DNA from: an uncultured Croceitalea sp.
GTDB lineage: Bacteria > Bacteroidota > Bacteroidia > Flavobacteriales > Flavobacteriaceae
DNA length: 64,000 bases
Assembly: GCA_947499565.1 (NCBI GenBank)
Contig: CANMOV010000001.1
Location: forward strand, 1,478,640-1,542,639
Direction of reading: 5' to 3'
Translations under genes and position numbers: made by a program
Shown here: one piece after another, positions 14,112-32,079 of the stretch
Numbering within the stretch: the first letter of the stretch is position 1
Layout of the letters: the number at the start of each line of letters is the position of its first letter
Notes under the pieces: generated by a model
Database searches by the model: none
What the model saw: the letters and a program-made list of their open reading frames with translations, nothing else
What the model was told of the DNA's origin: nothing

Positions 14112-14185
14112 GGCCTCGTGGCGCAACTGAATAGCGCATCTGATTACGGCTCAGAAGGTTACAGGTTTGAATCCTGTCGAGGTCA
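14112..14185 (+). tRNA. tRNA-Arg (anticodon ACG)
   Basis: The 74-nt cloverleaf has acceptor GGCCTCG pairing with CGAGGTC (one G-U), D-arm GCGC...GCGC, anticodon stem TCTGA/TCAGA around loop TTACGGC (anticodon ACG), and T-arm ACAGG-TTTGAAT-CCTGT. The discriminator is A and CCA is not encoded. The last 23 bases (14163-14185) are the beginning of a 143-bp direct repeat whose partner is at 31937, the usual sign of integration at a tRNA 3' end. Confidence 0.95.
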
Positions 14186-14305
14186 CGAATAAATTAAAAG
14201 CAGGCTAAAACAAATAGCTTGCTTTTTTGTTTTAGAAGGATTTTGATTTTCAAAGCGGAGCTTTGTCAGGAAGGACGAAGTCAATCCTGTCGAGGTCACT
14301 TAAAG
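14163..14305 (+). repeat. Left copy of 143-bp direct repeat (putative att site, tRNA-Arg 3' end)
   Basis: Aligned without gaps to 31937-32079, 140 of 143 positions agree; the differences are C/T, G/A and G/A. It starts in the tRNA T-arm. It also contains a second copy of the tRNA 3' sequence: AATCCTGTCGAGGTCAC occurs at 14171-14187 and again at 14283-14299. A palindrome CAAAGC-GGA-GCTTTG lies between them. Confidence 0.9.
14197..14228 (+). terminator. Terminator of tRNA-Arg
   Basis: AAAGCAGGCTA - AAACAAA - TAGCTTGCTTT pairs over 11 bp with one G-U, followed by TTT. It lies 11 nt after the tRNA and inside the direct repeat. Confidence 0.8.
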
Positions 14306-14598
14306 TCATTACAAATGACATCAAAACCATGTAAGTCTTATGATTTACATGGTTTTCAAGTTTTTAGGAGTACATAAGATTTGAATTGATTTGACTTTCG
14401 TCCTACAAATTTGGTAAGCTTTATTCTACTTTATTCAATAGACAACCTCAAGGTGGGGAAGTTTTTATCCTCATTTTTAATGAGTTAGATTGGTTTTATT
14501 TAAAGAATGATTGGGAAAAACACAATACCAATCTAAACCAAAATTTATTTATGGAAGTCTTATTTTAATCTTCCCAAGGTGAGAACAACTATGGGAAT
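14306..14598. other. Island left-end noncoding region
   Basis: It contains a strong hairpin AAAACCATGTAA - 10 nt - TTACATGGTTTT (14323-14356) followed by CAAGTTTTT, a likely terminator on the plus strand. From about 14400 to 14567 the plus strand has an open frame of about 50 codons ending in NLNQNLFMEVLF-stop. It has no start codon and looks like a gene remnant of unknown origin. No intact gene is seen. Confidence 0.4.
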
Positions 14599-15434
14599 TT
14601 ATTCATCAGATTCTTCAATACGTTTCAACAAGGAGTCTTTAAGGCTATCTAAAAACTTGGTGCTATTTGATTTTCTTGAACGAATCTCAATAAAGGTATG
14701 ATAGTAGTTTCCTAAATCAATGTTGAACATCTGTTCGTAGGCCAAGGCCATTTCTTTAATATCGGCCGCGGCGCTATTGACAGCTCCGCTACTATGCAAT
14801 GCATAAATAAGCTCTATTAAATCAGTTTTACTTGCTGTCCAAAAGAGCTTGGAGGCACGTGTTCGGTTAGGAGATTCAATTGTTTCCATTCCATTGGTAT
14901 TTTCTAGTTTATCTATTTCTTTTTTAAGGTGTATAATCAACATATCATATGCCAATATTGTAGCCACTGAAGAGTCATGACTTGTCGAAAATTGTTTGTC
15001 AGCATAAAAATGAAAGGTGTCAGGATGGAGGCGTATATCTTCTTTTCCTCTTATGAAATAATGATTATCTAAAGTAGTAGCCTTCCTTCGATAATACTGG
15101 TAAAACTATAAATTGTCATTAAAATAGACCTGTAGTCTTTCTATATGATTGTTTAGGTATTTTATTTGCGATTTTCTGCTTCCTCGGGGTCTTTTACTTT
15201 CTAAGCTGAAGAGCTTTATATAATAAATAAGCTTACTATAAACAAAAGGTTTGACCTTTTTAAAAAAGTCTATTTCGTCCGATTCATTTTTGAACGTGTA
15301 TGTTATTACGTTTTGCCTTAGTTTATCTAAAGCAATATTTGTTAGTTTAATTCCTTTTGAGTGTCTTTGTTCTTCAGTTCTAAACTCTCCAAAGAAATTT
15401 CCAGTTCGTTTAATATTTTATCATTTTTTTTCAA
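14599..15434 (-). pseudogene. rteC: Broken rteC-like gene
   Basis: Conceptual translation over two frames recovers an RteC-family protein of about 275 residues. The N-terminal part, from TTG at 15434, reads KNDKILNELEISLESLEL. After a frameshift between about 15342 and 15375 it continues with KLTNIALDKLRQNVITYTF, PFVYSKLIYYIKLFSLESKR and YFNDNL. An in-frame TAG at 15106-15108 then interrupts it before FYQYYRRKATTLDNHYFIRG. The intact C-terminal 122 codons (14599-14967) carry KTDLIELIYALHSSGAVN and the YYHTFIEIRSRK motif. RteC controls excision genes of CTnDOT-type elements. Two lesions make this nonfunctional as a full-length protein. Confidence 0.8.
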
Positions 15435-15482
15435 AATATTATTGATATGCTTCTAAAGTATGAGAATAGAAAAACTGAGTCT

Positions 15483-15884
15483 CTAATCATCCCCTTTATT
15501 TCCCTTTGTCAACCAAAAAGTATAGACTTTATTTCTAGGTGTACTTAAAAGGTTTATTACTATACAATCCCAGTTATCATCTATTAAATCGTCATTAATA
15601 CTCAAAATACCTCCAGCAGCTATCTTATAAATAACTCGTTTTTCGTCACCTCTTTCAATAGTTCTAAATAATTCGATGGTTCCGCTTAAAGTTCCTCCAT
15701 CTGGTAATTCTGCTCGAAAGCTATTACCATCTATATCTACCTTTTTAATAAGTTTTGTTTCAACTCTGTCCGCAAATCCACCAATAGTTATCTTTTGTTG
15801 TGGAGAAACATAGGTTTGGGCAGCTAAAGGTTTAAGGAAGCATAGTAATACTATGCACAAAATTGTTTTGATTTGTTTTTTCAA
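15483..15884 (-). CDS. Small exported protein of unknown function
   Basis: About 133 aa from a TTG start at 15882-15884, giving a signal peptide (MKKQIKTILCIVLLCFLKPL, cleavage near AAQ). A longer frame to 15941 begins inside a recurrent 16-bp motif and is less plausible. The mature part (about 110 residues, ISINDDLIDDNWDCIVINLL near the C-terminus) is probably beta-rich and matches no family I recognise. It stands alone in the island. Confidence 0.55.
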   Translation of the reverse strand: MKKQIKTILCIVLLCFLKPLAAQTYVSPQQKITIGGFADRVETKLIKKVDIDGNSFRAELPDGGTLSGTIELFRTIERGDEKRVIYKIAAGGILSINDDLIDDNWDCIVINLLSTPRNKVYTFWLTKGNKGDD

Positions 15885-15932
15885 TTTGGATGATGTTTTT
15901 TTAATAAAAGTAGTTGTACTTATCCAAAAGTT

Positions 15933-15948
15933 CTTGTACAATTTGGCT
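15933..15948 (-). repeat. Recurrent island motif, copy A
   Basis: The minus strand reads AGCCAAATTGTACAAG, centred on the palindrome TTGTACAA. Identical or similar copies lie at 18974, 20261 and 27570, each 36-75 nt upstream of a minus-strand island gene. Confidence 0.6.
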
Positions 15949-16149
15949 GTATGTTAAAGGCCAACATAGCTCAACCATAGGTATTAATTGAACCTTCATT
16001 CGTATTAAAATATGAGGCAGGTATTCGTTTAGTTTACTTTTACTATTACATTCGTAAATGCTAGCAATATTCCCTGACAGTCATCTATATAAGATTCTCC
16101 ATCTATGTTTGTGCAATAACTAAAACAACTAAGTCAATATTATACACTA

Positions 16150-16659
16150 TTATCTATTGTATCGATAGATGTAATGGGGGCCAAAATTCAGCAACTCGAT
16201 AGTCCTTTCGTAAAGAGCACCAATCTTTACAGCTGTGCGTTTGGATGCTTCGTTATCTGGGTCTATATAACTCACCAAAGTAGAAAGGCCTAACTTCTCA
16301 AAAGCAAAATTCTTGGAAGCAATACCGGCTTCTGTGGCATAACCCTTTCCATACATTTCCGGGAGAATCCAGTACCCTAATTCCACTTCTGGCCAAGGTT
16401 CCGATTTCCAGAGACCAACACAACCTACAAAGTCTCTTGAATCTCTTTCTTCGACAGCCCAATAACCAAAACCCTTTAATTGCCAATGTCCGATAAGAGA
16501 AACCATTTTTCGCCAGGCCATTTCTTTATCCAACTTTCCTCCAACGTATTTAGCAAGTTGTTCATTAGAGTAGTATTCAGAATATATTTTAAAGTCGGTT
16601 TCTCTCCATTGTCGTAATTTTAATCTTGATGTTTCAATTTCAATAAATTCCTTTGCCAT
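16150..16659 (-). CDS. GNAT N-acetyltransferase, RimJ/RimL type
   Basis: A 169-aa protein from ATG at 16657-16659; a TTG three codons upstream is the alternative. RimJ/RimL-like features are ETSRLKLRQWRETDF at the N-terminus, then WPEVELGYWILPEMYGKGYATEA (acetyl-CoA loop YGKGYATEA, about 105-113), SYIDPDNEASKRTAVKIGA and a short C-terminal strand. It would transfer acetyl from acetyl-CoA to an amine; the substrate (protein N-terminus, antibiotic or metabolite) cannot be inferred. It is flanked by noncoding DNA on its 5' side. Confidence 0.85.
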   Translation of the reverse strand: MAKEFIEIETSRLKLRQWRETDFKIYSEYYSNEQLAKYVGGKLDKEMAWRKMVSLIGHWQLKGFGYWAVEERDSRDFVGCVGLWKSEPWPEVELGYWILPEMYGKGYATEAGIASKNFAFEKLGLSTLVSYIDPDNEASKRTAVKIGALYERTIELLNFGPHYIYRYNR

Positions 16660-16706
16660 AATTATCAATATTTTTTTAACGAGTATGAAAGCTATTCTTG
16701 ACTCTT

Positions 16707-17194
16707 TTAAACTTTAGAGATAAGTTTGGTTGGGGAAACTGAAGGTAAATCCAACATCATTGCGCAATCCGCCATTTCGTAATTGGAGTGTGAAAATGAG
16801 ACTTCCGTAAAGCCTAATTTTCGGTATAGCTGAATGGCTTTATAAAGTTTCTTATTGGTAGTAAGATAAATCTTTTCAAATTTTTCTTTTTTAGCCACAT
16901 CAATGCAATGTAACATTAGTTTTTTGCCAATGCCTCTTTTCCGATACTCCTTAGTCACTCCCAACTTTAAAATCTCGACATATCCATTTTTCAAAGGCAT
17001 TAGAGTTGCTGTTCCTGCAATCTTATCTTCCAATTTGGCTAAAAAAATGCTCCCCCTTTATTTAAAATCTCTACTTGTGGATTATTCAATATAAATCCAT
17101 CGATTTCTTCAAACAAGTTGTTCTCTTCCAACCATTCCAATGACAAACTTTTGAAATCTGTATGATACTTTTTATGGTATTTGATTATTTGCAA
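16707..17194 (-). pseudogene. GNAT acetyltransferase disrupted by a frameshift
   Basis: Two frames join into one GNAT protein of about 162 aa. The N-terminal part starts at TTG 17194 (MQIIKYHKKYHTDFKSLSLE) and runs to a stop just after NKGGAFF. The C-terminal part continues from AKLEDKIAGTATLMPLKNG through the acetyl-CoA loop VTKEYRKRGIGKKLM. The break falls at a run of seven A (17041-17047 on the plus strand); an eighth A would restore the frame. It may be a real inactivating slip, a phase-variable tract or a sequencing error. The start lies 13 nt after the preceding gene's stop, suggesting an operon. Confidence 0.75.
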
Positions 17195-17207
17195 CCGGGA
17201 TATGATT

Positions 17208-17522
17208 TTATAAGGGACCAAACTCAGCGAATATACTATCGCTTTCTTTTACATTGTTCAAAGGAATGTATTCGCAAACTTTTGAATATTCTTCCCACAT
17301 TTTTTGAACTTTCTTATTAGAATGAGCCAATTCAATAGCTTCTTTTGACTTCCACCCAAATACTTCTAAAATTGTTCCGTCTTCCGCCTCACAAATAATC
17401 GATTTCCTATCCGTAACTAAATCTTCCGCATTGAGAATATCCCAATGGGAATACATCAGATTTTTTAAGTCGTTTGCTTTTCCTGGAAAAGGTTTATATG
17501 CCACTATTACTATTCTCTCCAT
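17208..17522 (-). CDS. Small protein, possibly a dimeric alpha/beta-barrel (ABM-like)
   Basis: About 104 aa from ATG at 17520-17522; the upstream extension overlaps the previous gene and is discarded. The sequence MERIVIVAYKPFPGKANDLK followed by a central EDGTILEVFGWKSKEAIELA and helix KKVQKMWEEYSKV has the beta-alpha-beta-beta-alpha-beta look of antibiotic-biosynthesis-monooxygenase-like folds. This is fold-level pattern recognition only. It lies in a putative operon with the NTF2-like lipoprotein (20 nt upstream) and the broken GNAT gene. Confidence 0.55.
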   Translation of the reverse strand: MERIVIVAYKPFPGKANDLKNLMYSHWDILNAEDLVTDRKSIICEAEDGTILEVFGWKSKEAIELAHSNKKVQKMWEEYSKVCEYIPLNNVKESDSIFAEFGPL

Positions 17523-17542
17523 GATTGTTCTCTTTTTATGTT

Positions 17543-18052
17543 CTACTCCGATTGATTTTGATTTTCGTTTTTGCCTGAAGAGTGACCTATAATAAATTTC
17601 CATTCTTCATTTTCCTTTTTCATTAAAATGGTCATCGCACCATTAATGTCAATCTTTTGGTCAGAAGAAAAAACCAAAACCTGTTCATATTCAACATAGA
17701 ACATCACATTGGAATCATTGATTGGAGTGACTTTTTTATCCAATGAGTTAAACTCCATACTTTTTAATGAAGGATAAAAACTTTTAATAGAACTACGGGC
17801 AGCTTCTCCAGAGGGATAAGCAATGGAGCCATTTTCTACCCAAAAAAATCTTGGGTCTTCTGAGTAGTATTTAGAAATTGTTTCCAAATCTCCATTAGAT
17901 AAGCTACTTTCGAACTTCGCAAATTCAGCTAGGACTTCCTTCTCAATAGTTTCGATTTCATCTCTTGTTAAATTATTTTCTCGATAATTACATGAAATCA
18001 TTAAAAAGGAACTAAAAGCCAGCAAATAAATCAGATTATAAATCTTTACCAT
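17543..18052 (-). CDS. NTF2-like (SnoaL/DUF4440-type) lipoprotein
   Basis: A 169-aa lipoprotein: hydrophobic leader with lipobox ending at C21 (SFLMISC). Residues about 30-150 fit an NTF2-like fold: N-terminal helix EIETIEKEVLAEFAKFESSL, the SNGDLETISKYYSEDPRFFW motif, then strands up to EEWKFIIGHSSG. DUF4440/SnoaL-like proteins bind small ligands in a cone-shaped cavity; enzymatic activity is not implied. It follows the AraC regulator by 4 nt, so coregulation is likely. Confidence 0.7.
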   Translation of the reverse strand: MVKIYNLIYLLAFSSFLMISCNYRENNLTRDEIETIEKEVLAEFAKFESSLSNGDLETISKYYSEDPRFFWVENGSIAYPSGEAARSSIKSFYPSLKSMEFNSLDKKVTPINDSNVMFYVEYEQVLVFSSDQKIDINGAMTILMKKENEEWKFIIGHSSGKNENQNQSE

Positions 18053-18056
18053 AATT

Positions 18057-18926
18057 CTATATATTAATTTTCTTAATTATTTCATTATTTCCGTAATCAC
18101 CCATTATTGTTGTGTTTAAAGAAAAATGATTGATGTTATTGCAAGGAATAATTCTTGTTTCTTTTTCGTAGGCTTTTATCTTACTCGGAGGAACACCAAT
18201 TATTTCAACAAAAGATTTTGTCATATGTGAAGCATCAGAAAATCCATAGTCATAGGCCGCATTTATAAGTTTTTTACCCTTTAAAACGTGATTCAATGAA
18301 TCAATAACTCTCATCCATTTAACGAAATTCTGGATTGACTGCCCAACATGCTCTTTAAAGAGGTGTCTTAATCTGCTTTCTGAAAGTCCAACTTCTAAGG
18401 CTACTTCTTTTACCTTGAAATTTTTAACAGGGGATTTTATGATATAATCAATGGCTTTTTCAACTCGCTTATCAATTGGTTCTTGCTGCGGTAAATCCAG
18501 CAGTTCTTGAATAATCGAAATACAACCCTTGAACATCTCATTACAATTATTCTGAACCAATAACTGCTTTAAGAAATTGTCGTTGGCATTGAGTATTTTA
18601 AGTTTTTTCAATCCCTTTATTGGGTTTTTTTCAAGGTATTTTTCGCTCAAAAGTTTAGCATATTTACTTTCTACATCTAAGTAAAGAAATAGTTGTATGC
18701 TATTATTACTATCCAACTGATGCAAATGGTCAGCATCTATTAATACTGCTGAATAAGGAGTCCAGTCAGTTTCCTTATCTTTTAACAAAAATTCCTTCTC
18801 AATATCGAATACTATTTGAAGTGTATTATGAGCATGAGGGTCAGTATGAAATGAAGTACCCCAAAAAACACAGAGTCCATTCCATAAATAAAGTGCTGAT
18901 GTGTGACCTAAATTTCCAGTATTCAA
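18057..18926 (-). CDS. AraC family transcriptional regulator
   Basis: A 289-aa protein. The N-terminal 100 residues form a cupin-like sensor (FHTDPHAHNTLQIVFDIEKE). Residues about 157-255 are the double helix-turn-helix: FKVKEVALEVGLSESRLRHLFKEHVGQSI and LINAAYDYGFSDASHMTKSFVEIIGVPPS. The frame appears to start with TTG. It heads a run including an NTF2-like lipoprotein, an ABM-like protein and a GNAT gene, which it may control. A copy of the 16-bp island motif lies 48 nt upstream. Confidence 0.85.
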   Translation of the reverse strand: MNTGNLGHTSALYLWNGLCVFWGTSFHTDPHAHNTLQIVFDIEKEFLLKDKETDWTPYSAVLIDADHLHQLDSNNSIQLFLYLDVESKYAKLLSEKYLEKNPIKGLKKLKILNANDNFLKQLLVQNNCNEMFKGCISIIQELLDLPQQEPIDKRVEKAIDYIIKSPVKNFKVKEVALEVGLSESRLRHLFKEHVGQSIQNFVKWMRVIDSLNHVLKGKKLINAAYDYGFSDASHMTKSFVEIIGVPPSKIKAYEKETRIIPCNNINHFSLNTTIMGDYGNNEIIKKINI

Positions 18927-18973
18927 TATGTTGTAAGTTTTTTCTTAAAATTAATATAATTTGACGATAGTGA

Positions 18974-18989
18974 CTTGTACAATTTGGCT
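18974..18989 (-). repeat. Recurrent island motif, copy B
   Basis: Minus strand AGCCAAATTGTACAAG, identical over 16 bp to copy A, upstream of the AraC gene. Confidence 0.6.
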
Positions 18990-19055
18990 AAATTATAAAA
19001 GGGCAATCCCATCATAAATCTGGTTTCTTTTGCATGTATCTCTCGTAGAGAAAAA

Positions 19056-19592
19056 TCAATCTATATGCAAAATCGAAGCTTCTTCTTCTAATAATGGTCC
19101 AATTACTTCAATGTGTCTACCTCCTTTATCTAACAATTCTCTTGTTGGCATTTCAAATACCCAATTAGGATTGTCTCTGCCAACTATCTCATAGTACCTC
19201 GTTTTACTTAGCCCATAAACGAGTTTTCCAACACCACTCCAATAAATAGCAGAAGTACACATTGGACATGGCTCATCGCTGGTGTAAACGGAGCAGTCTC
19301 TAAGAAATTCATAGCCATATTTTATACAAGCATCTCTTATCAAGTTAATCTCAGCGTGAGCAAGACAATCCTTATCCGTATTAATTGTATTTTCTCCTTT
19401 TAAAATGACTTCCCCTTCACTATTAACCAAAACACACCCGAATGGTAAGTTCCCATTTAACTTTGATTCTTTGGCGACTTCGATGGCCATTCTTACATAT
19501 TTTTCTTCATTTTCCATATTCTCATTTGGTTTGGAGTTTTCATTACATGAGAGAAATGCAATAAAAAAGGTTATTGTTAAAAGCTGTCTCAT
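19056..19592 (-). CDS. CMP/dCMP-type deaminase with lipoprotein leader
   Basis: A 178-aa protein. After a leader with lipobox (FIAFLSC16) comes a complete cytidine-deaminase-fold domain: PFGCVLV (about 50-56), zinc motif H79-A-E81 and P108-C-P-M-C112, with the catalytic glutamate present. The form resembles guanine deaminase/TadA-like nucleoside deaminases, which are cytosolic. An exported, lipid-anchored version is odd: either the leader is real and the enzyme acts in the envelope, or an internal start (M26 of NENMENEEKYVRMA) gives a cytosolic form. Its start overlaps the stop of the methyltransferase gene by 1 nt. Confidence 0.8.
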   Translation of the reverse strand: MRQLLTITFFIAFLSCNENSKPNENMENEEKYVRMAIEVAKESKLNGNLPFGCVLVNSEGEVILKGENTINTDKDCLAHAEINLIRDACIKYGYEFLRDCSVYTSDEPCPMCTSAIYWSGVGKLVYGLSKTRYYEIVGRDNPNWVFEMPTRELLDKGGRHIEVIGPLLEEEASILHID

Positions 19593-20224
19593 TACCGTCT
19601 TAAATTTACTTTTGTTCTGCCTACCTTTCTTACCAAATTCCCCATGTAAATCTGATTTCTATTGTGCTCATGGTCAATAAAAACTTTTTCAAACTCAATG
19701 ATACCCAGCCGTTTTTCAAAATATTCATAATCCCATTCAGGAGATGAAAAAATGATAATATTAGATGTTATATAATTCTGTATTTTACTTATCAGTTCTC
19801 TAAGTGGTGGGTTTTTTAATCTCAAATCCCCTTGGTTTTCCTCTTTATGAGCATACCAAAAGGGAACATCATAAATGACAATGTCAGCATCAATACTTTT
19901 TAAAATATCATCCTCAAATACATCACCATAAATGAGTTCTACTTTATCATCATGCCCTACTTCTTGTAGATTAACTTTACATATTTCCAATATGTCTTTA
20001 TCATTATCAACACCTATTACTTTTTTAAATGCAGGGGCTAGATATTCTAAAGTGACACCAATACAACAACAGAGTTCCGCCAAAATGAGCTCTGAATTAC
20101 CAATCCTGCTTCGCAAGTATTTTAAATTAGACGGATAATTAGATATAAATAGTGAAAACCTATCGCCCTTGATATTCTTACGGTAGCCTCTCCTATTTAT
20201 GATGTCTCTTACGTAGATTTCCAT
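19592..20224 (-). CDS. Class I SAM-dependent methyltransferase
   Basis: A 210-aa Rossmann methyltransferase. SAM motif I is atypical (AELCCCIGVTLEYLAP, about 49-64, with CCCIG where DxFxGxG is usual), motif II is KKVIGVDND (about 67-75), then VELIYGDVFEDD (about 95-106) and a DVPFWYA motif (about 118-124) like the (N/D)PPF/W motif of N-methylating enzymes of RNA or DNA. It resembles TGS1/Trm-like RNA methyltransferases at motif level; the substrate is unknown. It is cotranscribed with the deaminase. Confidence 0.7.
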   Translation of the reverse strand: MEIYVRDIINRRGYRKNIKGDRFSLFISNYPSNLKYLRSRIGNSELILAELCCCIGVTLEYLAPAFKKVIGVDNDKDILEICKVNLQEVGHDDKVELIYGDVFEDDILKSIDADIVIYDVPFWYAHKEENQGDLRLKNPPLRELISKIQNYITSNIIIFSSPEWDYEYFEKRLGIIEFEKVFIDHEHNRNQIYMGNLVRKVGRTKVNLRR

Positions 20225-20522
20225 TTAAGCCGTGAAAATATATCATTTCCTTCCTGAAATCTTGTACAAAATGGCTATTGTCCTTAACCAATATCATATC
20301 TCTTTTGGGACATAAGCGATCTTTTTAGATTTAAGCTATTTGAGAAGTTTAACTAACACCTATAGTTAAGCTATATTGACCCCTAATATACAGTCGAATT
20401 ATACAAGTGTTTTTTTGTTAGAGTGCTTATTTTTCAATTGTGAAAAGCGTTTCATCCATATTTATGCTTTTCATCTAAACAAAGGCATAACCATTTCAGC
20501 ATGTACAATATAAAATATTAAA
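20225..20522. other. Divergent intergenic region in the island
   Basis: This 298-bp region separates the minus-strand genes from the plus-strand genes. It holds copy C of the island motif (20261-20276) and an inverted repeat AGTTTAACTA - 7 nt - TAGTTAAGCT (20346-20372, one mismatch). No coding frame is apparent. Confidence 0.5.
20261..20276 (-). repeat. Recurrent island motif, copy C
   Basis: Minus strand AGCCATTTTGTACAAG, 14 of 16 positions as in copies A and B, 36 nt upstream of the methyltransferase ATG. Confidence 0.55.
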
Positions 20523-20939
20523 ATGAAAAAAACAGCTCTAACAATAGTTGTATTACTCATGTTAAGTTGTTCAAATGATAATGGAAATTCTAATGATTGT
20601 GAATTTGAAATTGTTATAAGTGATGAACTATATAGAAAGGCTCCATCAGACCAACTAGCAATTAATGTTATAGAAATAAATGGCAATTGTTTAAGAATCG
20701 ATTTTAGCGCAAGTGGTTGTAGTGGCGATACCTGGGAATTAAGCCTTGTTGATTCTGGAATAATTTTAGAATCACTTCCACCTCAAAGGATGTTACGACT
20801 TTCATTAGAGAATAAGGAACTTTGTGATGTTTTAATTACCAAACAATTGACATTCGATATCTCAAACTTAAAAGTTAATGGAGATAGCTTTTTATTAAAC
20901 ATTGCAAATTTTGAAGAGAAAATATTATTTGAATATTAA
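20523..20939 (+). CDS. Small lipoprotein of unknown function
   Basis: A 138-aa protein with a lipoprotein leader (MKKTALTIVVLLMLSC, C16) and an Asn/Asp-rich linker. Two cysteines in NCLRIDFSASGCSG (about 58-71) and one in ELCDVL may form disulfides. The rest is predicted beta-rich. No family recognised. It precedes the M1 peptidase by 12 nt and is probably cotranscribed with it. Confidence 0.65.
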   Translation: MKKTALTIVVLLMLSCSNDNGNSNDCEFEIVISDELYRKAPSDQLAINVIEINGNCLRIDFSASGCSGDTWELSLVDSGIILESLPPQRMLRLSLENKELCDVLITKQLTFDISNLKVNGDSFLLNIANFEEKILFEY

Positions 20940-20951
20940 AAGCAACAAGAT

Positions 20952-22967: not shown

Positions 22968-23039
22968 AGACTAGAGGTAAGAAAGGGTATTACAAGTTAT
23001 TATGTGTAAGAGAGATAATTAATTTATTCTTAAATTAAA

Positions 23040-23927: not shown

Positions 23928-23993
23928 TGCAACTTAATAAATAATATAAACAGAAATGAAAAAGCATCACAATACTCAGCAAACAAATCATCT

Positions 23994-24791: not shown

Positions 24792-24816
24792 AGGGCTTTT
24801 AGTTTCTGCGCAAAAA

Positions 24817-25011: not shown

Positions 25012-25117
25012 TATAGCGGTTTAAATAAACCTTTAAGGTATTACTTAAAATTCTTTCGAATTAAGTTGCAACGCTAGAGAAAAGAATCAGTCCTTAGTTT
25101 AAAATCAACACACTAAA

Positions 25118-26002
25118 ATGAAAAAAATAGCTATACTTATTTTCATGACGATTGCAATATTTAGTTGTAAATCTGTAAGAAAACCCACTGAATTAAAGAA
25201 ATTAGGCTCGAGAGGTTGGCATACTACAGTTGCCCCAGTCGCAGAGTTTGACCCTAGACATAAGTCTGTTGAAATATGGACGCCCAAACAGGTGAAAAAC
25301 CCACCTGTTGTCATATATGCTCATGGTGGTGCAGGTTTTAGAGAAGATGACCGAGCTCGAATTGATATGTTACAACGAAACGGTTTTGCAACTATCTCCT
25401 TTGACTCTTATGAAATGAATGGACTGGATTGGAACTTTGTAACCAGGAGAGTTACAAACAACGGTAAGCAGAATCTAATCTGGGGAGTATTTGAAGGAGC
25501 TCTTAAATACGCTTTAAAAGAAAATAAAAGATGGGATGTTAACAATATCTTTTTATATGGAGCATCAAATGGTGGGCGCACAGTATTGTATGCCGGGAAT
25601 GAACTCCCTATTAAGAATATACGTGGTATAATCTCCGAAGCTCCCGCAGCAACTGGTTATGCTCTGGGAGACTTGAATATCCCAACCATAGTTCTTTACG
25701 GTGCAAAGGATAACTGGGCTGGTAAATCAGAAACAGATTATGTTTGGACAAGAACTTACCCTAACTCTCCTATATCCGTGGAAGATTGGTTAAAATCCCA
25801 ACAAGAAAAATCTCATCACATTAAATTCATTTTCTATGAAAATGCGGGACATTTATTATTTGAAGGTCCATTAGAAAAGGTTACTGTGAAAAGAGGGGAT
25901 AAAATTGCATTTACTGCTTATCAAGGAGCAAGTGATGAAGCTTTAAAACGTTACGAAAATGATGTCATAACTTTTATCAACGATAATATAGAAAAGAGGT
26001 AA
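25118..26002 (+). CDS. Alpha/beta hydrolase lipoprotein (dienelactone-hydrolase-like)
   Basis: A 294-aa lipoprotein (leader MKKIAILIFMTIAIFSC, C17). Hydrolase features are PPVVIYAHGGAGFREDDRAR (oxyanion loop, about 67-86), nucleophile GASNGGR (about 149-155, S151), acid in VLYGAKDNW and a late His in ENAGHLLFEG (about 249-258). The DLH-like order and exported location suggest hydrolysis of an ester or peptide in the envelope. It is a single gene with its own 106-nt leader region. Confidence 0.8.
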   Translation: MKKIAILIFMTIAIFSCKSVRKPTELKKLGSRGWHTTVAPVAEFDPRHKSVEIWTPKQVKNPPVVIYAHGGAGFREDDRARIDMLQRNGFATISFDSYEMNGLDWNFVTRRVTNNGKQNLIWGVFEGALKYALKENKRWDVNNIFLYGASNGGRTVLYAGNELPIKNIRGIISEAPAATGYALGDLNIPTIVLYGAKDNWAGKSETDYVWTRTYPNSPISVEDWLKSQQEKSHHIKFIFYENAGHLLFEGPLEKVTVKRGDKIAFTAYQGASDEALKRYENDVITFINDNIEKR

Positions 26003-26100: not shown

Positions 26101-26316
26101 TTATTCGGTTAAATACTCTTTTTCAAATTGATGTATTGCTCCATTACCTTCAGCAGATTCAAATAAATCATATATCCATGTGTGTTTTGATTCTTGAGTA
26201 ATTTCCATAAAGGATTTGAGCAGGTCCTTGGTTGTGGCATATCGCTTTGTTTCCAACCTTAAATACCCATCATAGCTACTCCATTTTTTTATAAAGTTCT
26301 GCAATGCTTGATTCAC
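26101..26316 (-). CDS. Short hypothetical protein
   Basis: A 71-aa frame from a GTG start, 6 nt after the stop of the 390-aa protein gene on the same strand. It is predicted helical with many charged residues (NQALQNFIKKWSSYDGYLRL, EYLTE at the end). Codon use looks like a real gene and the spacing suggests translational coupling. No family recognised. Confidence 0.5.
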   Translation of the reverse strand: MNQALQNFIKKWSSYDGYLRLETKRYATTKDLLKSFMEITQESKHTWIYDLFESAEGNGAIHQFEKEYLTE

Positions 26317-26322
26317 AGTTTT

Positions 26323-27495
26323 TTAATTATTTTTTGATGGCGCAAAATGATTACTACCTATAATAAAGTGCTTATTGTCTTTTGGATACAACCCAAAAAA
26401 GAATGATTCTGTAACTCCATTATTATAGGTAAGAGTAATTGTATTGTCATCTATTTTATAATTCCCTGAAGAATTTGACTTCGCAAATATTGGTTTCCAT
26501 ACAGTATTGCCGCCTTTAACTGTCTTCCATGCAAACCTTCCCTGTCTATCAAAATAGACAGTGCTAGCATTGATTACTGTTGAACCTCCAAAAGCGTCCA
26601 GAGAATTAAATTTACCCATTAGTTTAAAGTCATTTGAAGCTGGCCTTACTTTGTGCCATTTTTTCCAACTAACTATTTTTCCATTTTTACTTCTAGTAAC
26701 TTGTATTATATTTCCTTTTTTACGCCACTTATCCCAGTTGTTCGGTTTATCTTTTTTAGATTCGTTGATATTAAATGATTCTAGGGGTTTAGACGGATTG
26801 GTAAAAACATCACCATTTTCAAAGAGAATGGAAACTTTATTTGTTATATAAACACCATTCAATCCATAAGAGGTTACCGTTCTCAATATAATGTCATAAA
26901 TCTTAGGGTTGGTCTTTGTAGATGAAGTAGTTTTATCTTGATTGTCCGTAACAGCTCTGTTGTCTTTTTTCACTCCAGTGATGCGAACTTTATCTGACTC
27001 AATAAGATTATTAACTAATTCCTTTGCAGTTTTAGAGTCAACCTTCCCCGAGTTTGACATTTGAGCAATCCACATTGTCTTAAGAATTAAGGCATCATAT
27101 TTCAGTTGTTTTTCTTCATTTGTTAGGTTTATATCCCGATTATTACTTTGGTAGAACTTAAATATTGTCTGGAGCTCACCATCGGTATGTACTTTCCCTT
27201 CTAGAATTTCCTCACATATCACTTTAAAAAAAGTTGTGATAGTTGCTAGGTCATAAGCATTGTACCCTTTGGCACTTGCAAGCCTTTCATATTCCTTGAA
27301 ATACGCATCTGATTGAAATATTTTGCTATATAGATATTGCTCTCTTGATGGAGTTTGAGGTTTTAATTCTTGCCAAGTTTGCTGTCGAATGATTTCTCTT
27401 AAGGAAAATTCAGGCGAATAAGTCACTTGTGAAAATATAACTGTACTATACAGTGATACCAAAACTATAATTATATGGCGATATTTGGTTCTCAT
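26323..27495 (-). CDS. Exported protein of unknown function
   Basis: A 390-aa protein with a signal peptide (IIIVLVSLYSTVIFSQ). The N-terminal half (about 30-170) is helical, including ATITTFFKVICEEIL and SKTAKELVNNLIES. A Thr/Lys-rich linker (about 180-195) leads to a C-terminal beta-rich half with Trp/Lys repeats (NNWDKWRKKGNIIQV, IVSWKKWHKV) and ending FIIGSNHFAPS. The two-part layout with a C-terminal lipid- or ligand-binding-like barrel is an inference; no family is recognised. Confidence 0.6.
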   Translation of the reverse strand: MRTKYRHIIIVLVSLYSTVIFSQVTYSPEFSLREIIRQQTWQELKPQTPSREQYLYSKIFQSDAYFKEYERLASAKGYNAYDLATITTFFKVICEEILEGKVHTDGELQTIFKFYQSNNRDINLTNEEKQLKYDALILKTMWIAQMSNSGKVDSKTAKELVNNLIESDKVRITGVKKDNRAVTDNQDKTTSSTKTNPKIYDIILRTVTSYGLNGVYITNKVSILFENGDVFTNPSKPLESFNINESKKDKPNNWDKWRKKGNIIQVTRSKNGKIVSWKKWHKVRPASNDFKLMGKFNSLDAFGGSTVINASTVYFDRQGRFAWKTVKGGNTVWKPIFAKSNSSGNYKIDDNTITLTYNNGVTESFFFGLYPKDNKHFIIGSNHFAPSKNN

Positions 27496-27569
27496 TTATA
27501 CTCAAATTTTTCAGATGAATCAAAAGGCGATTAAAGCACTTTAAAAGTAAATGTTTCTGCGTTGAAAGA

Positions 27570-27585
27570 GTTGTATAATCTGGCT
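27570..27585 (-). repeat. Recurrent island motif, copy D (degenerate)
   Basis: Minus strand AGCCAGATTATACAAC, 13 of 16 positions as in copies A and B, 74 nt upstream of the 390-aa protein gene. Confidence 0.4.
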
Positions 27586-27630
27586 CTACATATTTGGATA
27601 AAAAAATTGGTGTCAGTTTCTTTACTAAGT

Positions 27631-28308
27631 TTATAAAGCCTTAAGATTCTGTTTATATGTTCGTCCAATTGGAATTACCTTCTTTCCTATATAAATTCGA
27701 TTTCCTTCAATAGCAGTTACCATATCTTTATTGATTATAAACGAATTATGAATCCTCAAAAATTGTTCAGATAGTGCTGACTGCATATCAGATATACCCC
27801 TTAATGTAAGTAGGTTTCCAGTTTTAATAACTACTTTACAATAGTTACCTTGGGCTTCAATAAACAAGATTTCCGATAATTTTACACGATGTCTTTTCTT
27901 GTCTACTTTAATTTCAATAAAGTCAGATAAAACATCTGTAGGTTTGGTTATGTTTTCCTTAAGTTCCAAAACTGTATTAACTGCCTTGAGAAAACGCGAA
28001 AATGTAAATGGCTTCAATAAATAATCTGATACTTGAAATTCGTAGCCTTCCAAGGCAAATTCCCTATAGGCAGTGGTGACAATAATTTTTGGTGGGTTTT
28101 TGAGCGTTTTCAGCATTTCAAAACCTGTGAGTTTTGGCATATTAATGTCTAGAAACAATAAATCTATTTTCTTTTTTTGTAATAAATCAATAGCCTGAAA
28201 AGCATCATAGCAGTTATCCACTTTTTGCAAGCTTATAATTTCTTTTGCAAACTCTTCAATAATACTGTGAGCAATTGGTTCGTCATCTATGATGGCATAT
28301 TTTATCAT
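27631..28308 (-). CDS. LytTR-type response regulator
   Basis: A 225-aa protein. The receiver domain (1-115) has acidic pocket D8-D9, phospho-acceptor D54 in LLFLDINMPKLTG, T in VTTAY and K in LLKPF. The LytTR DNA-binding domain (about 125-225) has IEIKVDKKRHRVKLSEILFI, EAQGNYCKV and the FLRIHNSFIINKDMV segment. It pairs with the overlapping histidine kinase gene just upstream. The target genes are unknown, but the divergent beta-lactamase-family gene is a candidate. Confidence 0.92.
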   Translation of the reverse strand: MIKYAIIDDEPIAHSIIEEFAKEIISLQKVDNCYDAFQAIDLLQKKKIDLLFLDINMPKLTGFEMLKTLKNPPKIIVTTAYREFALEGYEFQVSDYLLKPFTFSRFLKAVNTVLELKENITKPTDVLSDFIEIKVDKKRHRVKLSEILFIEAQGNYCKVVIKTGNLLTLRGISDMQSALSEQFLRIHNSFIINKDMVTAIEGNRIYIGKKVIPIGRTYKQNLKAL

Positions 28309-29105
28309 TCGGTCAATAATGTAACTTTAGCGTGATATATATTTTTATCATCTCCCAAAACCAAACTGTGTTTTTTGGGATATAAATGTTGCAGTCTTTT
28401 CCCTAGGTTTTTCAAACCTAATCCCCCTGGTATTTCAGGTTTCGATTCAAAATTATTGATAACTTCAAAAGTAACCCTACATTCTTTTTGAACTATATCA
28501 ATATGAACAAAAGCGTCTTCCGTAAGGCTTTCAATACCATGCTTAAACGCATTTTCAACTAACATAATAAATAGTAGTGGAGCAACTAATATCGATTCAT
28601 CTTCTACATCTGTTTTGAATTGTATATCAACATTTTTCTGGTATCTTATTTTTTGGATGTCAATATATTCCTCAAGATAGTTGATTTCACTTTTCAGGGA
28701 TGTCTGGTTCTTTTCTCCCACATAGATGGTGTATCGCATTATTTCAGATAGTTTTTGGATAGCCTCTGGCGTCTTGTCTGATTTGGCTATGGCGAGTCCA
28801 TATAAATTATTCAGTGTATTGAAAAAGAAATGTGGGTCAATCTTGCTTTTTAACAAACTCAATTCAGCCTCTAATTTTTCATTTTTCAGCAGTCTATAAC
28901 TGCGTATTAATTTGAAAATCCAGGAAACTAATAAATAGCCAATTACGGCAAAAAACAGCACTTGAAAAATCAAAAAGTAAGTTTCGTAAACTGTCTCTGA
29001 TGAACTTTCCAGTAATTGTTTATAGTGAACCATACCGATGCTCGCACCTACTAATAGTATGATTACTACGAAATAAGACAGATATTTCTTTTCTACTGAA
29101 ACCAT
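28305..29105 (-). CDS. LytS/YpdA-family sensor histidine kinase
   Basis: A 266-aa protein with two N-terminal membrane spans (about 9-27 and 43-65) and a short periplasmic loop, then a coiled helix leading to the His_kinase domain: H92 in IDPHFFFNTLNNLYGLA and N-box LVENAFKHGIES (about 183-194), with ATP lid GGLGLKNLGKRLQHLY. The lack of a large sensor domain suggests it reads membrane state or a partner protein. Its stop overlaps the response regulator start by 4 nt (coupled translation). Confidence 0.9.
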   Translation of the reverse strand: MVSVEKKYLSYFVVIILLVGASIGMVHYKQLLESSSETVYETYFLIFQVLFFAVIGYLLVSWIFKLIRSYRLLKNEKLEAELSLLKSKIDPHFFFNTLNNLYGLAIAKSDKTPEAIQKLSEIMRYTIYVGEKNQTSLKSEINYLEEYIDIQKIRYQKNVDIQFKTDVEDESILVAPLLFIMLVENAFKHGIESLTEDAFVHIDIVQKECRVTFEVINNFESKPEIPGGLGLKNLGKRLQHLYPKKHSLVLGDDKNIYHAKVTLLTE

Positions 29106-29310
29106 AGTACAAAGGTATTTGAATAAAAAACTGATTACAATTTATTTGACGGATTGCTGATTTTTCCATATAACCCACATTAAATCCTGAACAAGTGGTA
29201 TTTATCACTAAGAGAGTGTTTATTATAGTATTACATAGGTCATCAATCAATTTTTTTATTTAATGACCCTTTATAAAACTAAGTTTACCCCAACTTTAAA
29301 ATACTATGTA

Positions 29311-30435
29311 ATGAAAACCTTGACATCAATACTATTGCTTGCTTTACTATGGGTCAATACAAGTTTAATAGCGCAATCACCAACAACTAAAAAAACGAAA
29401 TCCATTGACCAACTAATGGATACTAAAATTCCGTCCTTAATTGAAGAAAATAATGTGCCAGGAATTGCTGTTGCCATTCTTGAAGGCGGTAAGATTATTT
29501 ATCAAAAGGGATATGGCTATGCCGATAAATCAAATAAAGTCAAGATGACCACAACTACCGGGTTCAATATCGGCTCTATTTCAAAATTGTTTACTGCTTG
29601 GGGAGTTATGAATTTAGTTGAAGATGGCAAACTTGAACTTGATGTGCCTATAGAAAGCTACCTAACACGATGGAAATTGCCTAAATCTGAATTTGACCAC
29701 AGCAAAGTTACGATAAGGTCAATATTAAGCCATAGCGCAGGATTATCTGTACATGGATATCCGGGTTTTCATCCTGATTCCAAATTACCAACTTTAGAAG
29801 CATCATTAAATGGAGAGAATGGACCTATGAGAGAAAATGAAGCCGTAAAGGTTATTCTAGAACCGCAAACTCAGTTTAAATATTCAGGTGGTGGTTATAC
29901 CATTTTGCAGCTTGTTATCGAAGAAGTAACAGGACAAAAATTTGAAAATTATATGCGAAAGAGCGTTTTCGAACCACTTCATATATATAATACTAGTTTT
30001 ATCATTGATGATGGAATAAAGAAAAATTCAGCAAAACCTTATGACAAGGAGGCTAACGAAATTTATTTGGAACGATTTACTGCAAAGGCAGCAGCTGGTC
30101 TCCAAACAACTCTTGACGATATGTCCACTTTCGCAAAAGCACAATTCTGGGAAAATATAGTTTTAAATCAAGAGACTATTCAAGAAATGACACAAATTAT
30201 CCCAATAACCAAAACGAAGAGAAGTGCCTATGGTTTGGGCTATGCCACATATAATTTTGGACCTATTAAAGTTACAGGTCATGCAGGCACTAATACAGGT
30301 TGGGAAGCTGGCTTTATGATGGACTTTGAGAAAAAGGACGGAATTATCATTCTCGCAAACAGCTCTAATGGTAAAAAAGTTGCTATTAATACATTACAAA
30401 CTTGGGCCAAATGGCGTATGACTCAACAAAAATAA
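29311..30435 (+). CDS. Beta-lactamase-family serine hydrolase (class C/PBP-like)
   Basis: A 374-aa protein from ATG at 29311; the upstream in-frame ATG at 29263 gives an unnatural leader. A signal peptide (MKTLTSILLLALLWVNTSLI, AQ) precedes the serine-hydrolase fold: S89-I-S-K92 (SxxK), YSGGGY (YxN-like, about 199-204) and HAGTNTGW as the third motif. Such enzymes are peptidases or esterases rather than resistance beta-lactamases in most Bacteroidota. It is followed after 4 nt by an M28 peptidase gene and diverges from the LytS/LytTR pair. Confidence 0.85.
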   Translation: MKTLTSILLLALLWVNTSLIAQSPTTKKTKSIDQLMDTKIPSLIEENNVPGIAVAILEGGKIIYQKGYGYADKSNKVKMTTTTGFNIGSISKLFTAWGVMNLVEDGKLELDVPIESYLTRWKLPKSEFDHSKVTIRSILSHSAGLSVHGYPGFHPDSKLPTLEASLNGENGPMRENEAVKVILEPQTQFKYSGGGYTILQLVIEEVTGQKFENYMRKSVFEPLHIYNTSFIIDDGIKKNSAKPYDKEANEIYLERFTAKAAAGLQTTLDDMSTFAKAQFWENIVLNQETIQEMTQIIPITKTKRSAYGLGYATYNFGPIKVTGHAGTNTGWEAGFMMDFEKKDGIIILANSSNGKKVAINTLQTWAKWRMTQQK

Positions 30436-30439
30436 GTCC

Positions 30440-31342
30440 ATGCTTAAAACTATCATCACTTGCTATTTACTACTCTCAATTTCATTTGGTATCGCGCAAG
30501 AAAAAGACACTTCTATAAGTATTATAAATTATCAAAAAGAGGTCATAGCAAAATTGACAGGTAAAAATACCATTTCAAAAAATCGCTTTTTGAGGCAAAG
30601 AGCAAGCTATGAAGAACGTTTTCTATCCGCTGAATATTTGGCAAGCGAGCTCAAAAGGTCTGGATGGTCATTCGAATTGCAAAAGTACCGAACTCCTCAG
30701 AGTAATTATTTTTTGGATTTGTTTTTCAATCCCAATAAGGGTATCAACGTAGTTGGAAAGCTTTTAGCTTCAAAACCAACAAAGAAATATCTTATACTTG
30801 GTGCTCATTACGATTCTGAAAGAAATTCTCCCGGTGCAGTAGACAATGCAAGTGGTGTGGCTTTGTGTCTGGCTCTTGCAAAAGAGTTACAACAATTTAA
30901 ACACAGGCAATACAATATTATTATTGCCTTTTTTGACCAGGAAGAGGATGATGAAGTGGGTAGCAACGTATTTGTAGAAAAGATTCAAAATGAAAATTTT
31001 GAAGTGCATTCTGTACATATATTTGATTTGATAGGTTATGATTCAGACAATGACTTTGCTTTAACACTGCAATCACCTGCACCTCTTTTGGAGGATGTCT
31101 ATTTAAGAAAGGCTAAGGAAGAAAACATCTCTATTCAAATTATTGGCGGAGCTGCATCAGACAACAAACCTTTTCTAGAGGCAAAGTATGCAACTATTCA
31201 TCCCTTTGAGGAACTTGATGACAGAACACCATATTATCACAGTCCGCAAGATAGCTATGAAACTGTCAATTTTGAATTTTTGGCTAATACCACTCAATAT
31301 ATTGGAAATGTGCTGTCAGAAATTATCGAAAATAATGAATGA
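30440..31342 (+). CDS. M28 family zinc aminopeptidase, exported
   Basis: A 300-aa protein with a signal peptide (MLKTIITCYLLLSISFGIAQ). Zinc-site residues are H123 (GAHYDS), D135 (GAVDNASG), E168/E169 (DQEEDD, catalytic and ligand) and later Asp and His (FDLIGYDSD; TPYYHSPQDSY). It would release N-terminal residues from peptides outside the cytoplasm. It is coupled with the preceding serine hydrolase and the following membrane protein. Confidence 0.88.
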   Translation: MLKTIITCYLLLSISFGIAQEKDTSISIINYQKEVIAKLTGKNTISKNRFLRQRASYEERFLSAEYLASELKRSGWSFELQKYRTPQSNYFLDLFFNPNKGINVVGKLLASKPTKKYLILGAHYDSERNSPGAVDNASGVALCLALAKELQQFKHRQYNIIIAFFDQEEDDEVGSNVFVEKIQNENFEVHSVHIFDLIGYDSDNDFALTLQSPAPLLEDVYLRKAKEENISIQIIGGAASDNKPFLEAKYATIHPFEELDDRTPYYHSPQDSYETVNFEFLANTTQYIGNVLSEIIENNE

Positions 31343-31721
31343 GATGAATAAAGATAGATTTAAAAATAACCAAGCTGTTTTATTAGTTAGCTTTTTGCCA
31401 CTATTGATTCATGTCATACGACACCTGATGACATATTCCTATTTTCCTTTATTGTTTACATTATTATTGGTAATTGTGTTTACTATTCTTTGGAAACTGA
31501 GAATTATTACTTCAGCTCTTCTTGTTAAAATTTGGTCTATAGTATTAATAGGATATGGGATAATTCGTTTGGTTCTATCTGTATTGGTTTTACTTACCGG
31601 TAATAGCGTTCCATCCGACGTTTATTTTCAAATTGATATTTGGTATTTTTCCATGTCAGTGTTTGTGTTATTTTCTGGTATTTGGATTTTTCGAAGAAAG
31701 AAATCTGAATTTTATATATAA
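31335..31721 (+). CDS. Small four-span membrane protein
   Basis: About 128 aa from ATG at 31335, overlapping the M28 gene by 8 bp; ATG 31344 is the alternative. A longer frame reaching 31188 lies inside the M28 gene and is rejected. Four hydrophobic spans are visible: AVLLVSFLPLLIHVIRHLM, FPLLFTLLLVIVFTILW, SIVLIGYGIIRLVLSVLVLL and WYFSMSVFVLFSGIWIF, followed by a basic tail RRKKSEF. No family recognised; probably cotranscribed with the two hydrolases. Confidence 0.65.
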   Translation: MNEMNKDRFKNNQAVLLVSFLPLLIHVIRHLMTYSYFPLLFTLLLVIVFTILWKLRIITSALLVKIWSIVLIGYGIIRLVLSVLVLLTGNSVPSDVYFQIDIWYFSMSVFVLFSGIWIFRRKKSEFYI

Positions 31722-31936
31722 CCCTAAATTCAAAACCTATATCGCGAAGCTTAAAATGGAAGGGAGTGGAGTTACATGCTAATTTAATTCTGGCTGTTTT
31801 ATAGGTATTTATTATACCTTTGATTGAGATTAAAGTTCATTTCTAAACAATCTAATTCAATAAAAAAGGTAGTTATTTGACTACCTCGATAAATTTGACA
31901 TCTTAGAATACTTAAAAATAAAGGCACTTACAAGAT
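31722..31936. other. Island right-end noncoding region
   Basis: No gene is seen. A hairpin AGGTAGT - TATTTG - ACTACCT at 31867-31886 is followed on the minus strand by TTTTTTA and would act as a terminator for leftward transcription. The stretch AATTCTGGCTGTTTTATAGG near 31784-31805 loosely resembles the island 16-bp motif. Confidence 0.4.
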
Positions 31937-32079
31937 AGGTTTGAATCCTGTCGAGGTCATGAATAAATTAAAAGCAAGCTAAAACAAATAGCTTGCTTTT
32001 TTGTTTTAGAAGGATTTTGATTTTCAAAGCGGAGCTTTGTCAGGAAGGACGAAGTCAATCCTGTCGAGATCACTTAAAG
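31937..32079 (+). repeat. Right copy of 143-bp direct repeat (putative att site)
   Basis: It is 140/143 identical to 14163-14305. It begins with the last 23 bases of tRNA-Arg (T-arm 3' part and acceptor 3' strand) but no 5' tRNA half precedes it, so it is a tRNA fragment, not a gene. The terminator hairpin (31971-32002) is perfect here because G is replaced by A. The internal 17-bp tRNA-end repeat is present at 31945-31961 and 32057-32073, one base changed in each. Confidence 0.9.

Follow-up and report, generated by a model that had tools for sequence, protein, structure and literature searches.

A probable decayed conjugative element at tRNA-Arg(ACG) of an uncultured Croceitalea sp. and the conserved tRNA-trailing unit within its flanking repeats

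Conjugative transposons of the RteC/TraM/TraG type, such as CTnDOT, are known from Bacteroidota, and in the tyrT operon of Escherichia coli the rtT repeats stand as tandem units behind a tRNA gene and contain copies of the tRNA 3' end. For the rtT RNA a function has been described (PMC4986893), and two further systems come close to the locus reported here, as far as the accessible parts of these accounts go. Cis-mobilizable elements (CIMEs) keep the attachment sites attL and attR and have lost their integration and transfer genes; together with integrative and conjugative elements (ICEs) and integrative and mobilizable elements (IMEs) they form accretion arrays, in which transfer of a whole composite is possible (PMC5704250). 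Islands at the ssrA gene of Dehalococcoides lie in tandem, each bounded by a short copy of the RNA gene 3' end, with insertion in the T-loop and in some cases without an integration module (PMC3146451). In the present study a window of 64,000 nucleotides, the whole stretch of DNA analyzed, from an uncultured Croceitalea sp. (Flavobacteriaceae) was investigated, in which a block of accessory genes, here called E1, follows a tRNA-Arg(ACG) gene and is enclosed by two 143-bp repeats. E1 itself is very probably an unremarkable remnant of a conjugative element that had targeted a tRNA gene, and it can be placed among the CIMEs of tRNA hot spots. The unusual part is a conserved, tRNA-tracking unit which makes up most of the repeat.

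E1 measures 17,774 bp (14163 to 31936) and is very probably a decayed integrated element, a cis-mobilizable relic, in the T-arm of tRNA-Arg(ACG). When the window was compared with itself by BLAST, 14163-14305 aligned with 31937-32079 over 143 bp with three mismatches (repeat positions 24, 41 and 133), no gaps and an E-value of 9e-65. The first-pass annotation, made from the sequence alone, had described gapless repeats with 140 of 143 identical positions, the left one starting within the 3' part of the tRNA gene and the right one holding only a stretch of its tail, and ARAGORN and BLAST bore this out. The T-arm reads CAGG-TTTGAAT-CCTG; since the ARAGORN call ends at 14186, the left repeat, starting inside the T-arm, holds the last 24 tRNA bases, and the right repeat carries the same 24-base stretch with a single change in its last base, the attR core including the full T-loop. 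The 17-nt tRNA tail AATCCTGTCGAGGTCAC occurs twice in each 143-bp copy, 113 bp apart, with one mismatch in each of the two tails of the right repeat. Across the 3.88-Mb genome the 143-bp sequence was found in full length at two places only, with two partial matches at the other unit-bearing tRNA-Arg gene near C1:237 kb (E 0.001), which rules out a dispersed repeat family, named by the first-pass annotation as a finding that would speak against integration. Only a 23-bp core of the repeat is an attachment site; the remainder belongs to a separate, conserved 113-bp unit, which trails tRNA genes and was found in 182 of the 395 family genomes examined. The whole 143 bp as attachment core was rejected on this account, and caution is advisable elsewhere, as long direct repeats linked to tRNA genes may be attachment sites over part of their length only.

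Both ends of E1 match those of an integrase-bearing element at the same tRNA. With the tail included, 14284-14398 shows 86% identity over 115 bp (E 8e-34) to an ICE in a genome of the same genus (G004), at the end next to the tRNA, where the counterpart stands directly before the integrase gene. For the right end, matches were obtained to the opposite end of this ICE (78% over 133 bp, E 2e-19) and to the end of an element in a genome of another genus, G025 (79% over 159 bp, E 2e-32), both taking in 16 core bases. The G004 ICE (43.25 kb, tail 218 to tail 43471) starts with a 417-aa tyrosine recombinase with Phage_integrase, SAM and arm-binding domains, and has TraM and TraG among nine of its proteins scanned as well as an RteC homologue. 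With integrase, TraM, TraG and RteC homologue it resembles the conjugative transposons of Bacteroidota, whereas E1 retains just the ends and a broken rteC gene. The two stretches of the latter, searched separately, match PF09357 at positions 2-53 (15109-15417, E 5e-14) and 56-219 of 219 (14602-15105, E 1.5e-61).

Between the cores, 21 open reading frames (ORFs) were scanned against Pfam, namely 20 of the 22 with at least 80 aa and one of 71 aa, the two left out being antisense to larger ORFs. The first cargo block encodes two GNAT acetyltransferases, a SnoaL-like protein, an AraC-type regulator, a deaminase, a methyltransferase, an M1 peptidase, a PD40 protein, an alpha/beta hydrolase, a BD-FAE-like protein (the match falling under the curated cut-off of that family) and three proteins without family. 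A LytTR response regulator, a His_kinase protein, a serine hydrolase of the Beta-lactamase family (PF00144) and an M28 peptidase are found in the second, besides two proteins and one further ORF without family. Among the 21 ORFs there was no match to Phage_integrase and none to a Tra or Mob family, six of them being without any Pfam match at 1e-3, and two tRNA-Arg integrases of same-genus genomes gave no match in the window by tblastn (E 1e-3); the absence of a visible integrase gene, remarked on in the first-pass annotation, was thus confirmed. E1 has kept attL and attR and has lost integrase and transfer genes, and its ends and rteC remnant point to ICE origin; an ICE of the RteC type would have its own integrase and conjugation module, neither of which was recognised in E1. 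Because ends, cargo and a broken rteC are kept and integrase and transfer genes are not recognised, E1 was classified as a CIME in the sense of the published definition (PMC5704250). As in the arrays treated there, attachment sites outlast the genes and elements are stacked at the 3' end of one gene; in E1, however, the repeats reach 113 bp past the core, with a tRNA-trailing unit at each end. The positions of all features are given in Table 1.

Table 1. Features of the tRNA-Arg(ACG) locus in the 64,000-nt window.
Feature	Position	Strand	Basis or remark
tRNA-Arg(ACG), integration target	14112..14186	+	ARAGORN; Rfam RF00005, 59.1 bits
attL core, within the tRNA gene, AGGTTTGAATCCTGTCGAGGTCAC; tail copy 1 from 14170	14163..14186	+	identical to 31937-31960 except for the last base
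Unit U1	14187..14282	+	covariance model R1, 117 bits; structure from alignment A1
Second tRNA 3' tail (att2)	14283..14299	+	17/17 identical to 14170-14186
Left end of E1	14300..14398	+	terminator-like hairpin 14323-14356, arm-like region
rteC, interrupted: two stretches in the same frame with a stop between; listed ORF 14599-14967	14599..15417	-	PF09357
Cargo, first block	15483..26002	.	Pfam
Cargo, second block	26101..31721	.	Pfam
Right end of E1	31802..31936	+	matches element ends in G004 and G025
attR core, AGGTTTGAATCCTGTCGAGGTCAT; tail copy 3 from 31944	31937..31960	+	self-BLAST of the window
Unit U2, second copy	31961..32056	+	covariance model R1, 115.6 bits
Tail copy 4, one mismatch	32057..32073	+	sequence comparison
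Gene-less mini-unit m2	32074..32231	+	matches mini-units of G004 and G025
Degenerate tail copy 5	32232..32247	+	3 substitutions and 1 deletion relative to the core
Further extra DNA	32418..50431	.	in G002 not present between tRNA and flank
Conserved right flank, GH17/GH30/MFS cluster	50521..63994	-	follows the hot spot also in G002, G004 and G033

The gene left of the tRNA encodes a phosphoribosyltransferase (PF00156), and by match positions this neighbourhood of tRNA-Arg(ACG) is common to G002, G003, G004, G005, G006 and G033. The distance from the tRNA tail to the first matched gene of the flank amounts to about 0.2 kb in G002, 18.6 kb in G033 (where the first match is a homologue of 51274-52182), 36.3 kb in the window and 74.5 kb in G004. 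The interval is an integration hot spot, of which E1 occupies only half here. In G004 the ICE is followed by a second stretch that begins with an integrase (40% identical to that of the ICE), a gene-less mini-unit of 172 bp and a third stretch, in which an integrase is matched (57%, residues 3-340 of 417). The 113-bp unit comes last, at a distance of 66.4 kb from the tRNA tail, with the conserved flank 8 kb further on; such a layout would result if elements had entered the tRNA one after another and shifted the resident unit to the right. Further tail copies occur also in G033 and G025, and G003 shows two tandem units before an integrase element. In the sister genome G005 the unit at the tRNA is succeeded by the left end of an element, which has diverged (69% over 112 bp); apart from a weak response-regulator match (32%, E 8e-6), no gene of E1 was found in the 7.4 kb covered there. 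Homologues of four cargo genes of E1 (kinase, regulator, serine hydrolase and M28 peptidase; 43-62% identity) lie in the same hot spot in G033 in another arrangement. The shared ICE ends, the tail stacks in other genomes and the nearly empty site of G002 support the site-specific integration at tRNA-Arg proposed in the first pass and the loss of the integrase. As at ssrA of Dehalococcoides, tandem islands follow one RNA gene with copies of its 3' end and insertion in the T-loop; there, however, a serine recombinase and 20-bp repeats are involved, and the accessible part of that account does not mention a gene-less hairpin unit (PMC3146451). E1 is useful because a single genus offers, at one tRNA, both an integrase-bearing element and a decayed one of its kind.

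Both repeats bracket E1, as had been noted, but variable DNA passes beyond 32079, and from the tRNA to about 50.4 kb the window is extra relative to G002, having been either gained here or lost in G002. The part beyond the repeat encodes a LytTR protein, a galactokinase-like GHMP kinase, GalT, an operon of acyl-CoA/fatty-acid type, an SBF transporter and a cNMP-binding protein; no attachment core with up to 4 errors was found near its right edge at about 50.4 kb. Directly behind U2 the first part of m2, tail included, matches the 172-bp att-to-att unit of G004 (81% over 110 bp, E 3e-24), and its right end a unit of G025 (83% over 46 bp, E 2e-6). Such gene-less att-to-att mini-units of about 150-170 bp were seen in G004 (C5 oriented, 56401-56573), in G025 (tails 273, 440 and 611) and in the window (32074-32231), and by eye their right ends likewise show xxGGA, a hairpin and AATCC.

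Elsewhere in the genome, 15 integrase-family matches lie above the cut-off, and the tRNA neighbourhood was inspected at 12 loci out of 16 integrase matches. Five of the 12 have an integrase clearly related to that of G004 (41-50% identity), near tRNA-Arg(CCT), tRNA-Pro(GGG), tRNA-Ser(GCT)/Pro(TGG), tRNA-Lys(TTT) and tmRNA, respectively; the three nearest to it (49-50%) stand beside tRNA-Arg(CCT) and two tRNA-Pro genes. At a sixth locus (L037) tRNA genes are nearby and the integrase match is weak. The search for an integrase elsewhere, as recommended in the first pass, gave relatives of the G004 enzyme, but none of the 12 inspected loci adjoins tRNA-Arg(ACG), so that there is no obvious candidate for a mobilisation of E1 in trans.

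Of greater consequence than E1 are its repeats, which drew attention to a folded unit that is conserved behind genes of tRNA-Arg and tRNA-Tyr in nearly half of the sampled genomes of the family. U1 consists of a terminator-like hairpin P1 (14196-14226 plus an outer stem), the GNA-loop hairpin P2 (CAAAGC-GGA-GCTTTG), the motif CAGGA and a pseudo T-arm P3, and the unit ends in the second copy of the tRNA tail. Alignment A1 comprises 43 of 66 distinct units, all from loci with an exact 21-mer of the P2 motif, and contains 32 pairs, 19 with changes on both sides; 96.2% of the cells are paired, against 77.3% after shuffling, and the covariation score is 0.440 against 0.118 (reached in 0 of 500 shuffles). 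Pairs vary in P1 and inner P3, and those of P2 and outer P3 as well as the motif are constant because the loci were chosen by the exact 21-mer. The compensatory changes support part of the predicted fold. Terminators covary by nature, and since P1 (14196-14226) fits the pattern of an intrinsic terminator, covariation alone is no proof of an RNA function. In the minimum-energy RNA fold of 14112-14305 the 5' strand of the tRNA acceptor pairs with tail copy 2 and not with copy 1, which may mean little as the tail copies are identical; as a model, the fold shows how closely P3 and tail imitate the T-arm and acceptor strand.

By covariance model the unit was detected in 182 of 395 genomes and 115 of 203 genera of the Flavobacteriaceae, and in a sample of the phylum in 15 of 345 genomes, all 15 Flavobacteriaceae, the share of the family in the 345 not having been established. 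A scan for the exact P2 motif in one genome per species (84,980 species) yielded 72 stretches, which by record title were, among the matches listed, Flavobacteriia, Flavobacteriales or unspecified Bacteroidota, with the exception of one Legionella locus (L107) without tRNA and without unit context. A tRNA-Arg gene (ACG or TCG) is present in 57 of the 72 and no such gene in 15, in several cases because the motif lies at a contig end; the stretches fetched for 80 covariance-model matches contain a tRNA in 70 cases and lack one in 10. The unit sits behind tRNA-Arg(ACG), (TCG) and (TCT) and tRNA-Tyr. Three unit matches by model were obtained in the genome studied here, at tRNA-Arg(ACG) and tRNA-Arg(TCT) (L192), and the P2 motif was found twice in it with up to 3 mismatches. 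Tandem units occur in G003, L104 and L138, and runs reach ten copies (L069). In L069 (CALSTV010000001.1) ten P2 motifs follow tRNA-Arg(TCG) at intervals of 96 bp without further full tails after the first, an array which appears to be a local amplification of part of the unit. Of 102 motif copies, 26 run on into a further tail with no more than 3 substitutions; behind several of these, an element-type left end or another unit was recognised by eye. In L080, L088, L114 and L118 the tRNA-Arg(ACG) tail is followed by other sequence and the unit lies 240, 2297, 266 and 259 bp from the tRNA, respectively; these units would have been displaced by insertion at the tRNA. One P1 type (single linkage, 88% identity) accounts for 48 of 111 distinct units and four tRNA types, which suggests exchange between tRNA loci, with common descent as an alternative. 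A known RNA family was rejected for the unit: an Rfam scan of 13000-33000 with E up to 1 gave only the tRNA and a weak plastid family under its cut-off. A search of the literature gave no description of such a unit in Flavobacteriaceae, which is weak evidence of novelty as most subscription journals lay outside its coverage.

The motif xxGGA directly after P2 is complementary to the 3' strand of the T-stem of the tRNA it trails, and its first two bases vary with that strand: CA goes with TCCTG in 15 of 31 units, AG with TCCCT in 12 of 19, GA with TCCTC in 7 of 8 and CT with TCCAG in 3 of 4, and the rarer classes TCCTT (1 of 2) and TCCTA (0 of 3) show no clear pattern. At least two positions next to GGA match in 38 of 67 units, against 13.9 (s.d. 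3.0) with shuffled tails, and none of 5000 shuffles reached 38, in a statistic that ignores relatedness and is based on 80 loci, some genomes occurring twice, which were hand-picked from about 150 model matches listed, with 30 loci already extracted being excluded. The 67 rows (37 tRNA-Arg(TCG), 21 (ACG), 6 (TCT) and 3 tRNA-Tyr) were taken from 78 tRNA rows; the 11 dropped were eight neighbouring tRNA-Pro or tRNA-Ser genes, L236 and L255 with displaced units, and L186, which did not conform to the start pattern. Within tRNA-Arg(TCG) alone the mean match was 1.81 against 0.91 after shuffling, and a subset of 34 of the 78 rows gave 18 matches against 10.0. In a separate set chosen only for the motif CAGGA, 51 of 52 units sit behind a TCCTG tail; from this 21-mer set 52 of 58 tRNA rows were read, those dropped being the second tRNA (CCT) of L130, the four loci with displaced units listed above, all with TCCTG tails, and L090, a 53rd CAGGA unit directly after its tRNA, whose tail TCTTG does not fit the motif. 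Where P3 was readable (54 units), the motif fits the tRNA in 30, 21 of them without a fit of the local 3' strand, and the 3' strand fits it in 22, 13 of them without a fit of the motif, with neither fitting in 11; pairing within P3 therefore does not fully explain the coupling, which is far from complete. At tRNA-Arg(TCT) of the genome studied here (L192, C1:236400-238700) the motif AAAGGA of the unit matches the different tail of that tRNA, AATCCTTTC, and a nearly full second tail is present. The motif opens a testable question, namely how tRNA genes become, or resist being, integration sites.

As to the history of the locus, a resident tRNA-Arg(ACG) trailed by the 113-bp 3' unit typical of the family would have received an ICE of the G004 type, integrated at the T-arm by a tyrosine recombinase, by which the resident unit was displaced to the right. 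Integrase and transfer genes would then have been lost and rteC interrupted, ends and cargo staying behind, and a second unit copy, U1, would have come to lie between tRNA and element. Its source was most likely a circle of element and unit re-entering the tRNA via the full T-arm core at attR, a process which would give the order tRNA-U1-tail-E1-core-U2, as observed. T-arm insertion alone would leave a repeat of about 23 bp, and on this proposal the repeat is 143 bp long because U1 was carried in with the composite circle. Over the 143 bp, 3 positions separate U1 from U2; compared with the unit of G005, U1 shows 6 differences and U2 shows 9. Since all three bases by which U1 departs from U2 are shared with G005, U1 is the copy most like that at the tRNA of the sister genome and U2 represents a second line. 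The principal rival, which we consider possible though not probable, holds that E1 entered at the tail between two tandem units already present, with AATCCTG of P3 as attachment site and without a composite circle. The tandem units of G003, L104 and L138 and the motif copies that continue into a second tail and then into element-type ends or another unit agree with such an entry, but the attR core contains the T-loop AGGTTTG, absent from P3, and a mismatched overlap would arise at the left junction. That the block is ordinary chromosome, its repeat produced by homologous recombination or duplication, is hardly credible: its base composition (0.328 against 0.338 and 0.349 in the flanks) does not set it apart, but its ends are common to integrase-bearing elements at the same tRNA, and in G002 the flank follows the tRNA at 0.2 kb. 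This inconspicuous composition nevertheless weighs against integration with a composite circle, as do several other points. Composite circle, pre-existing tandem and a later arrival of U1 alone would all give the same DNA. Neither an excised circle nor a pristine empty site was seen among the genomes compared, and the empty site that the first-pass annotation wished to find in relatives is nearly realized in G002, which keeps, however, an element left end (72% over 110 bp). A stretch of G002 that by eye resembled an integrase remnant gave no match to the two tRNA-Arg integrases at E 1e-3 and was discarded. The exact P2 21-mer was not found in viral contigs, nor the 143 bp of the window in phage or plasmid collections (blastn, E 1e-3), and a movement of the unit with elements is for this reason not directly shown.

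For the unit itself, a role as part of the integration site is proposed, in which it would provide the transcription terminator of the tRNA and an inverted copy of the right half-site of the tRNA, the latter possibly a second landing place for arriving elements. More tentatively, the unit could stand for a class of DNA/RNA element, new and coupled to tRNAs, in the Flavobacteriaceae. Such a cassette of three hairpins behind tRNA-Arg or tRNA-Tyr would preserve the complementarity of its motif to the T-stem 3' strand of the tRNA in front of it. By base pairing or as an inverted recombinase half-site it would single out this tRNA as a landing place (or a decoy) for integrating elements, or else it would control read-through tRNA precursors. 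A tenable but doubtful alternative is a conserved RNA or tRNA-trailer element, kept for expression or processing of tRNA-Arg, to which the island repeat would be incidental. Like rtT, the unit stands in tandem behind tRNA genes with copies of their 3' ends, and its position directly at these ends, the compensatory changes in P1, the complementary motif and its frequency in the family would suit such a trailer; it differs from rtT, however, in having no Rfam match to that family, in its other hairpins, in a motif that tracks the host tRNA and in its association with integration hot spots. With P1 fitting a terminator, moreover, P2 and P3 would be transcribed on read-through only and the covariation of P1 may stem from termination alone, and the lack of an Rfam match beyond the tRNA above cut-off and the patchy presence of the unit likewise tell against a trailer. 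The ends of IS200/IS605 elements are recognised by a guide mechanism, and two GNA-loop hairpins with a target-complementary motif, together with one P1 type common to units at four tRNA types, recall a miniature mobile element transferred as a single strand by an HUH (Y1) transposase with the motif as guide. This seems very improbable, as Y1_Tnp (PF01797) has no match in this genome, a position away from a tRNA tail or a displaced tail is exceptional in the loci read (in L075, for example, the P2/P3 half lies 504 bp from its tRNA), and none was met with in the phage and plasmid collections searched. Classification as a REP/RAYT or IS200/IS605-like element was rejected, this genome having neither a Y1 transposase nor many dispersed copies.

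Two minor observations concern other parts of the window. Neighbouring GH17-like genes at 57384-59806, with 67% DNA identity over 1.1 kb, constitute a tandem duplication in the conserved flank, and a single ORF of 809 aa at 10393-12822 combines a BlaR1-type M56 peptidase, an M23 peptidase and a TonB-receptor plug domain.

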